Source: Pistricoccus aurantiacus
Lineage (GTDB): Bacteria > Pseudomonadota > Gammaproteobacteria > Pseudomonadales > Halomonadaceae
Assembly: GCF_007954585.1 (NCBI RefSeq)
Contig: NZ_CP042382.1
Coordinates: forward strand, 1,302,001 to 1,366,000
Reading direction: 5' to 3'
Length of the DNA stretch: 64,000 nt
Made by a program: the position numbers and the translations under genes. Shown here piece by piece: positions 35,320 through 37,459 of the stretch. Within the stretch, counting starts at the first letter, position 1. The number at the start of each line of letters is the position of its first letter. Under the pieces are notes generated by a model, which saw only the letters and a program-made list of their open reading frames with translations, searched no databases and had not been told where the DNA came from.

Positions 35320-36702
35320 TCAAAGGGGGATTTCGAGCTCCGGCGCCACCTGCTTGAGCGCTTGGGCGAAACGCTCGCGGACGCGTGCCAGGGCGTCTTC
35401 GCTCTTGCCCTCGAAGCGCAGTACCAGCATCGGCGTGGTATTGGAGGCGCGGCACAGTCCCCAGCCGTCCGGATAATCCACGCGGATACCGTCCAGGGTG
35501 GTCTTGACGCCTTCGTCACCGAAATCGCCTTCCTTGGCCAGCCGCGCCACCAGATCAAACTTGGTATCGTCAGTGACCTCGACGTTGATTTCCGGAGTGC
35601 TCAGATCCTGAGGGAAGCGATCGAAGAAGGTATCCGCATCGTCCGGCTGACGGGAAAGGATCTCCAGCAGCCGCGCCGCGCCGTAAAGACCGTCATCGAA
35701 GCCGTACCAGCGCTCCTTGAAGAAGATGTGTCCGCTCATTTCCCCGGCGAGCAGGGCGCCGGTTTCCTTCATGCGCGCCTTGATCAGGGAATGGCCGGTA
35801 CGCCACATTTCCGGGGTGCCGCCGGCGTTTTCGATCACCTGGGCCAGATTGCCGGTGCACTTGACGTCGAAGATCACTTTGGCGCCGGGGTTACGGGACA
35901 GCATGTCCTCGGCGAAGGCCATCATCAGTCGATCAGGGTAGATCAGCTCGCCCTTGGGGGTAATTACCCCGAGCCGGTCGCCGTCGCCGTCGAAGGCCAG
36001 GCCGATATCCGCGCCGGTTTCCTTGACGGTGCGAATCAGATCCTTGAGATTCTCCGGCTTGCCCGGGTCCGGGTGATGGTTGGGGAAGGTGCCATCGATC
36101 TCGTCGTAAAGCGGAATCATTTCTACGCCCAGGCGCTCGATCAGCTGTGGACCCATTTCTCCCGCCACGCCATTGCCACAGTCCACCACCGCCTTGAGCG
36201 GTCGATCGATGGATATGTCGGACAGAACGCGCTCCAGATAACGCTCGCGAATGTCTCCCTTGATATGGCTGCCCTGACCGACGATCAGGTCGTTATCGAC
36301 AATTCGCTGGTAAAGGGCGGTGATGGCTTCGCCGGACAGGGTCTCGCCGCCGAGCACGATCTTGAAACCGTTATAGTCCGGCGGGTTGTGGCTGCCGGTG
36401 ACCACTACGCCAGAGGTGGAGTCTTCCAGCACGTGGGTGGCGTAATAAAGTACCGGGGTGGGCACCATGCCGATATCGACCACCTTGCGGCCCGACGTGA
36501 TCAGGCCACGAATCAGCGCATCCACCAGCCGCGGACCGGAAAGACGACCGTCCCGGGCAACGATGACCGTATCTTCGTCACGGGCGGCGGCTTCGCTGCC
36601 GATGGCTTGGCCGATCTTCTCGACATTGAGCTCCGTCAGAGTGTCATCGACGATGCCGCGAATATCGTAGGCGCGAAAGATGGAAGCGGGTATCTGGGTC
36701 AT
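35320..36702 (-). CDS. algC: Phosphomannomutase/phosphoglucomutase
   Basis: About 460-residue alpha-D-phosphohexomutase that supplies Man-1-P and Glc-1-P for lipopolysaccharide and exopolysaccharide. IFRAYDIRGIVDDTL is the N-terminal loop, VVVTGSHNPPDYNGFK holds the phospho-serine, AFDGDGDRLGV is the metal loop and GEMSGHIFF the sugar-binding loop. ATG 36702 has AGGA 8 nt upstream and the family start; the extension to 36750 is not conserved. A structured repeat element lies just upstream. Confidence 0.95.
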   Translation of the reverse strand: MTQIPASIFRAYDIRGIVDDTLTELNVEKIGQAIGSEAAARDEDTVIVARDGRLSGPRLVDALIRGLITSGRKVVDIGMVPTPVLYYATHVLEDSTSGVVVTGSHNPPDYNGFKIVLGGETLSGEAITALYQRIVDNDLIVGQGSHIKGDIRERYLERVLSDISIDRPLKAVVDCGNGVAGEMGPQLIERLGVEMIPLYDEIDGTFPNHHPDPGKPENLKDLIRTVKETGADIGLAFDGDGDRLGVITPKGELIYPDRLMMAFAEDMLSRNPGAKVIFDVKCTGNLAQVIENAGGTPEMWRTGHSLIKARMKETGALLAGEMSGHIFFKERWYGFDDGLYGAARLLEILSRQPDDADTFFDRFPQDLSTPEINVEVTDDTKFDLVARLAKEGDFGDEGVKTTLDGIRVDYPDGWGLCRASNTTPMLVLRFEGKSEDALARVRERFAQALKQVAPELEIPL

Positions 36703-36783
36703 AGAGCGGTTCCTTGATAAGTCATCCAAAAGATAGCTCAGCGCTATCATGATTAGTCTGTCGCTCGGGACTGACCCGTCGAC

Positions 36784-36917
36784 AGGTCTTCGAGCGGGGC
36801 CGGCCCTCCGGAGGCGCTGTAAACCCTTCCTTGGGCGCTACTTTTGCTGTCTGACCGCCATGGATGGCGGAAATGCCGGAATTGTATGGAACTTTTTCCG
36901 GCCATGGCAAAAGACCT
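36784..36917. repeat. 134-bp multi-hairpin element with 7-bp terminal inverted repeats
   Basis: The ends are AGGTCTT (36784-36790) and AAGACCT (36911-36917). Inside lie the palindromes GGGCCGGCCC (36797-36806) and CCTCCGGAGG (36805-36814), the hairpin CCGCCAT-GG-ATGGCGG (36855-36870), the arms GCCGGAA/TTCCGGC (36875-36881 and 36896-36902) and GCCATGGC (36901-36908). GGCGCT is repeated directly at 36813 and 36834. Nothing in it looks coding. The layout is that of a dispersed intergenic repeat (MITE or REP-like), and similar sequences are, to my memory, common between Halomonas genes; copies could not be searched. It fills most of the dut-algC gap. Confidence 0.65.
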
Positions 36918-36994
36918 CCTTTTCGACCTGTCCCCGGCGTCCCTCGTTTATTCAGTTGAGATTGTCCCTAGATCGCCCATAGGGCGGTGAAACA

Positions 36995-37459
36995 TCAGTG
37001 GCGACCGGAACTGCCGAAGCCGTCGGCGCCCCGCAGGCTTTCTTCGAAGCTCTCGACTACCTGGAGTTCGGCTTGCACTACGGGCACCAGCACGTATTGG
37101 GCGAGACGCTCGAAGGGTTCGAGGGTGAAAGGTCTCCGGCCGCGATTCCAGGTGGAAATCATCAGTTCGCCCTGGTAGTCGGAATCGATCAGCCCGACCA
37201 GGTTGCCCAGCACAATGCCGTGCTTGTGGCCCAGGCCGGAGCGGGGCAGGATCAGGCCCGCCAAGGCCGGGTCACCGATATGAATGGCCAGGCCGGTACG
37301 CACCAGCTCGCATTGTCCCGGTTCGAGGGTCAGGGGCGCATCCAGCAGGGCCCGCAGGTCCATGCCGGCGCTGCCCTGGCTCGAATAAGTGGGCAGGCCG
37401 AAGTCTCGCAGGCGTTCGTCGAGGATTCTCACCGCCAGGCGCGGCTTGGGGTCGGTCAT
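36995..37459 (-). CDS. dut: dUTP diphosphatase
   Basis: Trimeric dUTPase of 154 residues that removes dUTP and makes dUMP for thymidylate. All five motifs are visible: [46 protein letters not shown] and the C-terminal GFGSSGRH. The start overlaps the coaBC stop by 4 nt, the usual coaBC-dut coupling. Confidence 0.97.

Follow-up and report, generated by a model that had tools for sequence, protein, structure and literature searches.

What occupies the gap between dut and algC in Pistricoccus aurantiacus (Halomonadaceae), and to what kind of element does it belong? The window analysed here is a stretch of 64,000 nucleotides (nt) of contig NZ_CP042382.1 (assembly GCF_007954585.1, positions 1,302,001 to 1,366,000); all single coordinates below are window positions. 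In the dut-algC gap, at 36784-36917, the original prediction, made from the letters alone, described a non-coding 134-bp unit with terminal inverted repeats and five internal palindromes. It was taken either for a dispersed repeat mobilised in trans, of the repetitive extragenic palindromic (REP) or miniature inverted-repeat transposable element (MITE) type, or for a structured RNA in the leader of algC. Our analysis places this stretch, as one copy, in a large family of dispersed folded repeats present in many gammaproteobacteria. The observation behind the prediction was real, while the boundaries drawn for the element and its "terminal repeats" were wrong.

Dispersal and fold of the repeat family

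Searched with the 201 bp around the stretch, the host genome gave strong partial copies, and a 25-base pattern describing a single hairpin (at most three mismatches) yielded eight copies, against none for the reversed control. With at most two mismatches, the pattern was present in 73 of the 121 genomes of the host's family (1225 matches, up to 65 in one genome; no control match in any of them). The element is therefore neither single-copy nor devoid of homologues in related genomes, and its proposed dispersed character is borne out. A scan of named genomes recovered at least 119 stretches, in genera including Halomonas, Billgrantia, Vreelandella, Chromohalobacter, Salinicola, Onishia, Litchfieldella and Bisbaumannia, and also Shewanella, Parashewanella, Microbulbifer, Glaciecola, Alteromonas, Saccharospirillum and Halovibrio.

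A covariance model of 115 positions, derived from 42 hand-picked Halomonadaceae copies of simple geometry, matched 33 of 369 genomes of the class, representing 27 families and 30 genera, and nearly all of the class matches listed span positions 1-115. At most 9-10 candidates were scored per genome in this search, under stricter filters, and the copy numbers are lower bounds; the E-values are rough because the model calibration was short. In a phylum sample 26 of 398 genomes matched, all in the same class (the share of the 398 lying outside the class is not given).

The host copies are about 110-180 bp long. Read on the element strand, a copy consists of the 5' arms of helices P1 (interrupted by internal loops) and P2, two hairpins (H1 and H2), and the 3' arms of P2 and P1. 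P1 and P2 form a long outer stem whose sequence is free. The H1 stem, of up to 8-9 bp, is likewise free in sequence and carries an ANGGAN-type loop as in H2, and H2 itself reads AGCG-CCC-ANGGAN-GGG-TTYAC-AGCG in most copies of the family. The hexaloops of both hairpins are mostly ANGGAN, closed by a C-G pair.

This fold is supported by strong covariation of the stems, in agreement with the structured strand that had been suspected. Among the 42 Halomonadaceae copies, double changes occurred in 26 of 37 pairs (217 cells, against 61.4 in shuffles). Class-wide, an alignment of 52 copies from 44 hand-picked loci, itself fitted to the covariance model, contained double changes in 35 of the 37 pairs (827 cells, against 249.9 when shuffled); 94.2% of its cells were paired, compared with 52.2%, and slid controls collapsed. 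The number of pair types in the 52-copy alignment showed no excess (127, against 128.6 in shuffles). The two strands can moreover be told apart in P1: under equal penalties for G.T and A.C, 59 G.T and 7 A.C pairs were counted (129 of 172 copies kept), and the ratios with one copy per genome or locus were 20:4, 11:0 and 37:7. Because G.U in P1 is far above A.C, it is the element strand that folds as a single strand, either as RNA or as DNA.

Hairpin loops, placement and candidate explanations

To avoid circularity, H2 was searched with an open hexaloop; ANGGAN was found in all but two of the matches listed (150, counted by hand; the exceptions are AGGTAG and TGGGAT), with loop positions 2 and 6 varying. 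H1, which lies outside the retrieval pattern, forms a hairpin in 142 of 174 copies, with ANGGAN in 121 of the 142 (120 of these closed by C-G); several of the exceptions have inserts or are Microbulbifer pentaloops that retain GGA. In distant families a loop-blind parser recognised ANGGAN in 20/20 H2 and in 16/20 H1 of the same parsed copies, although the model used to retrieve these loci contains the loop, and 8 of 28 loci were not parsed. The inner H2 stems differ there (CCC/GGG, TAC/GTA, CAC/GTG and TCC/GGA), while the closing C-G is kept in all four. The distance from GGA to GGA is 19 nt in 102 copies, 20 in 18, 21 in 8 and 15 in 4, i.e. 19-21 nt in 128 of 132.

Such tips look like docking sites of the global regulator CsrA (RsmA), at least as judged from their sequence. 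According to the available part of PMC7652899, RsmE contacts a hairpin with an ANGGAN hexaloop, the CsrA consensus obtained by systematic evolution of ligands by exponential enrichment (SELEX) is RUACARGGAUGU, and one CsrA can bridge sites 10-63 nt apart, best above 18. H2 of two copies (L218 and L219) fits this consensus in full, and the family as a whole presents paired ANGGAN hexaloop hairpins at bridging distance; the window copy has only H2. CsrA is encoded in 31 of 33 genomes with the element (the two without it are 88% and 85% complete), and in 28/28 well-assembled ones against 280/314 overall. One genome (G430) has eight CsrA matches alongside nine model matches to the element.

Gene context was taken from a home-made gene caller with a coding density of 0.76, so that some genes are missed; 23 copies at locus edges are unclassed. 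Between tandem genes, 56 copies lie sense to both neighbours and 30 antisense (p 0.007). Convergent gaps, with 19 copies, are not enriched (p 0.15), divergent gaps, with 7, are depleted (p 1e-4), and two copies are intragenic. The distance past the upstream stop codon has medians of 27.5 and 19 nt. In the host, tandem genes flank each of the six other full copies (three sense, three antisense), and the window copy is sense. Since copies stand just behind stop codons, the RNA of the element, when its strand is transcribed, would form part of intercistronic or 3' untranslated mRNA.

Comparison of orthologous sites revealed turnover. Copies at such sites vary in presence, orientation, stems and modules; 27 elements have an orthologous gap without a recognisable copy, and because some of these "empty" sites retain remnants of the element, loss as well as gain may occur. 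Opposite orientation at orthologous gaps could reflect either flipping in place or separate insertion. In one pair of loci (L040 and L041) with about 98% identical flanks, three paired substitutions changed both arms of the H1 stem, a pattern that suggests conversion by another copy rather than point mutation. In another pair (L039 and L093), at the same site and with about 94% identical flanks, H1 differs only by a module of about 80 nt (type C) with its own ATGGAT hairpin, the H1 stem being unchanged; modules therefore enter or leave at the H1 loop.

A cis-regulatory algC leader RNA, such as a riboswitch, finds little support. The window copy does lie upstream of algC on the same strand, but all 22 relatives with a readable dut-algC gap lack the element there (7 further loci, of 30 in all, were unreadable), and the other host copies occur in other gene pairs and in both orientations. 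Rfam returned no match at gathering level for 38 loci, and nothing meaningful at E up to 5. We regard a leader function, which is largely refuted, as very improbable.

We tentatively favour another explanation, namely that the element is a REP-like dispersed repeat whose RNA is bound by CsrA. One CsrA dimer would bridge H1 and H2, and the family would scatter docking sites, possibly acting as CsrA decoys, across the genome. Several observations weigh against this reading. As many as 30 of the 86 copies in tandem gaps are antisense, and 20 of 56 filled orthologous pairs (which are not independent) hold opposite orientations. The H1 loop is kept in 21/23 antisense and 41/48 sense copies (inserts set aside); transcription in cis is therefore not the sole force keeping the loops. 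The five-base bulge of H2 and its flanks (AGCG...TTYACAGCG) are conserved beyond the needs of CsrA, and in the window copy the normal loop of H1 is gone, which leaves a single normal ANGGAN hairpin. According to the available part of PMC7652899, highly stable hairpins may be weaker CsrA ligands, and the long H1 stem might, by its stability, be such a ligand. Because CsrA is so common in the class, its presence in element genomes is weak support. There is also no G.U bias in P2 (13:12) and little in H1 (12:4, with 10 of the 12 at the last pair). An initial P1 count under lax scoring gave 282 G.T and 290 A.C; in it the helices had slipped register, and it was superseded by the count given above.

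Owing to the loop conservation in antisense copies, the H2 bulge and flanks, the loss of the normal H1 loop in the window copy and the commonness of CsrA, a purely selfish element of the REP or MITE type is a serious contender, which we consider a real possibility. It would fold as single-stranded DNA, a transposase or recombinase would recognise the ANGGAN hairpins and the H2 bulge, and the likeness to CsrA sites would be coincidental. Loops conserved whatever the orientation to genes, presence and orientation that vary at orthologous sites, the gain or loss of a module precisely at the H1 loop and the joint change of both H1 arms all accord with it. The enzyme that would move such an element is harder to name. 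No copy was found near any of 39 listed loci of Y1 transposases (one of them in a genome without the element) when these were searched with the model, nor near any of 18 searched with the pattern, and Y1 genes are equally common in class genomes with the element (23/31) and without it (24/31, hand-picked). Within the host's family the split is suggestive (9 of 16 element-rich genomes, host included, against 2 of 14 element-free ones). Mobilisation by a REP-associated tyrosine transposase (RAYT), the usual partner of REP sequences, was nevertheless dropped in view of the Y1 loci and of the missing class-wide association, and the mobilisation in trans that had been proposed is left with no enzyme found for it. 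The orientation relative to replication, which in IS200/IS605-type single-strand transposition would favour the lagging strand, shows no significant bias (38 leading and 52 lagging among 90 copies of two genomes), and no clean target duplication at the ends, expected from the original prediction, was recognised in four alignments of filled and empty sites, some of the latter with remnants. No parent transposon was found, no systematic search for an autonomous copy having been made. Carriage by phages or plasmids was also considered and set aside: one query copy matched no phage record, and the single replicon that it did match, from Halomonas, was hit at 11 places.

A third explanation is that of a passive, REP-like structure at mRNA 3' ends, whose long stem would slow 3' to 5' decay or cut readthrough with no loop-specific binding. 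Copies behind stop codons and their depletion between divergent genes come near to the REP pattern, as far as the available part of PMC3733652 describes it. This explanation gives no account of why, from family to family, the stems are free but hardly any change is seen in the loops and in most of H2, and it appears improbable.

Binding of the element RNA by CsrA is thus the reading we prefer, with an effect on neighbouring mRNA as its possible consequence. The fuller proposal, that a mobile repeat with paired CsrA-binding hairpins as its conserved core has been scattered after genes in many gammaproteobacterial families, is conceivable, if somewhat doubtful. Were it true, the family would constitute a genome-wide and fast-rearranging system of CsrA targets and decoys, and a route by which new genes enter the Csr regulon. 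Should the hairpins bind CsrA, a global regulator has its sites spread by a dispersed element; otherwise the same ANGGAN hairpin code would be read by some other factor.

The window copy and the exchange of modules

By comparison with other copies, the window element occupies about 36767-36943 on the minus strand (Table 1); the covariance model matched 36779-36943 with 61.2 bits (E 8.8e-13 in 106 kb, with rough calibration). The element lies, as predicted, between dut (36995-37459, minus) and algC (start near 36717, minus), and a minus-strand open reading frame of 62 amino acids (36722-36910) does run across the 134-bp stretch. The 7-base sequences AGGTCTT (at 36784) and AAGACCT (ending at 36917) are likewise present, but neither terminates the element: one falls in the 3' arm of the outer stem, the other at the base of H1, and their pairing joins these two parts. 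The real outer arms, GACAGGTC and GACCTGTC, lie within one (I3) of the four inverted pairs listed in 36700-37000. Folded alone, the 134 nt are mildly more stable than shuffles (z -1.98 for the minus strand, -0.51 for the plus strand), and it is homology, rather than this stability, that gives the evidence for the window element its strength.

Table 1. Parts of the repeat copy in the dut-algC gap
Feature	Position	Strand	Basis or remark
Whole element, long form	36767..36943	minus, strand of dut and algC	comparison of copies and model match
P1 outermost 5' arm, GGGAC	36939..36943	minus	pairs with GTCCC 36767-36771; covarying helix
P1 5' arm, GACAGGTC	36925..36932	minus	pairs with 36781-36788; inside inverted pair I3
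P2 5' arm, GGAGG	36915..36919	minus	pairs with CCTCC 36810-36814
H1 5' arm, CTTTTGCC	36906..36913	minus	covarying helix
Type B insert in place of H1 hexaloop	36848..36905	minus	lacking in short copies L011, L013, L014
H1 3' arm, GCAAAAG	36841..36847	minus	
H2, AGCG-CCC-AAGGAA-GGG-TTTAC-AGCG	36815..36839	minus	hexaloop 36827-36832; five-base bulge
P2 3' arm, CCTCC	36810..36814	minus	
Type D insert and native spacer at P2/P1 junction, GGAGGGCCGGCCCCGCTCGAA	36789..36809 (limits approximate)	minus	L105 has nearly the same insert there
P1 3' arm, GACCTGTC	36781..36788	minus	
P1 outermost 3' arm, GTCCC	36767..36771	minus	pairs with GGGAC 36939-36943

The window copy, a long form, carries two inserts, type B within the loop of H1 and type D where P2 meets P1. 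Because the type B insert took the place of the H1 loop, only H2 keeps its normal form. This insert is shared with another copy (L009, at 707854) and with a split host copy (L012/L010), and in the window it contains an inverted ANGGAN hairpin, CCGCCATCCATGGCGG (36855-36870). Type C inserts, also located in the H1 loop and carrying an ANGGAN hairpin of their own, were found in 24 copies.

Several further arrangements were noted. The split host copy (G000:C1:3268924-3270299; L006/L012, L003/L010) is interrupted by about 1.27 kb, probably an insertion sequence, with ends resembling TGAGGTGGACCCC...GGGGTCCAGTTCA. One genome (G200; L264-L271, L225) contains near-identical copies inside a nested palindrome of about 350 nt, the outer arms being CAGGCTGTTGAAAAA and its complement; in one of them (L268) the head is inverted with respect to the palindrome arms. 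Inverted pairs of copies about 65-85 bp apart, reminiscent of REPIN or BIME doublets, occur at L222 (1501-1616 minus, 1694-1812 plus), G212:C71:12105-12412 and G319:C181:20746-21033. Between the window element and algC, at 36732-36748 on the minus strand, a short stem-loop is followed by TTTTGG; the scan for terminator-like structures found one, with 0.4 expected.

Comparison with known systems

The family is common and strongly structured, yet it was found in no catalogue, neither in Rfam at gathering level nor among the titles and abstracts listed by searches of the open-access literature, where no description of such a repeat was met. Sub-threshold Rfam matches were mostly to microRNA precursors (E down to 1.3e-5 for L219, on both strands, far below the gathering score) and are taken as artefacts of long hairpins. 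TwoAYGGAY RNA (RF01731) has, as its name says, AYGGAY hairpin loops. It was not matched at gathering level among the 38 loci, nor at E up to 10 for L219 and L318, and in contrast to our family no dispersal is mentioned in the available part of its literature. MITEs are short dispersed elements with terminal inverted repeats; in the family described here, by contrast, the arm sequences differ among copies of one genome.

The small RNAs that bind CsrA or RsmA (CsrB/C, RsmX/Y/Z) carry several GGA-loop hairpins per RNA, according to the available parts of PMC7652899 and PMC4333381. Multiple GGA-loop hairpins are likewise found in our family, which, unlike these RNAs, is dispersed and variable in presence, with two or three sites per copy. 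The only Rfam likeness to this group was a sub-threshold RsmW fragment on H1 of L219 (14.9 bits).

REP sequences are short palindromes with many copies, mostly intergenic and often in inverted pairs, that lie a short distance past stop codons, chiefly where genes are in tandem or converge, and those of the CGTC type also lack a known transposase (PMC3733652, available part). Similarly to these and to REPINs and BIMEs, our family is multi-copy, intergenic, placed behind stop codons and rare between divergent genes. However, a REP is a single palindrome of 20-40 bp, whereas the present element has about 110-180 bp, with two hairpins on a long stem of free sequence. It also has no constant GTAG or CGTC tag, as read by eye: GTAG stands before H2 in many copies from Halomonadaceae, and most of those listed from Shewanella, Microbulbifer or the distant families lack it there (uncounted). 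Unlike the GTAG REPs, it shows no link to RAYTs, and its loops are mostly ANGGAN. The family is REP-like in its placement and CsrA-site-like in the anatomy of its loops, and a proven member of neither group.
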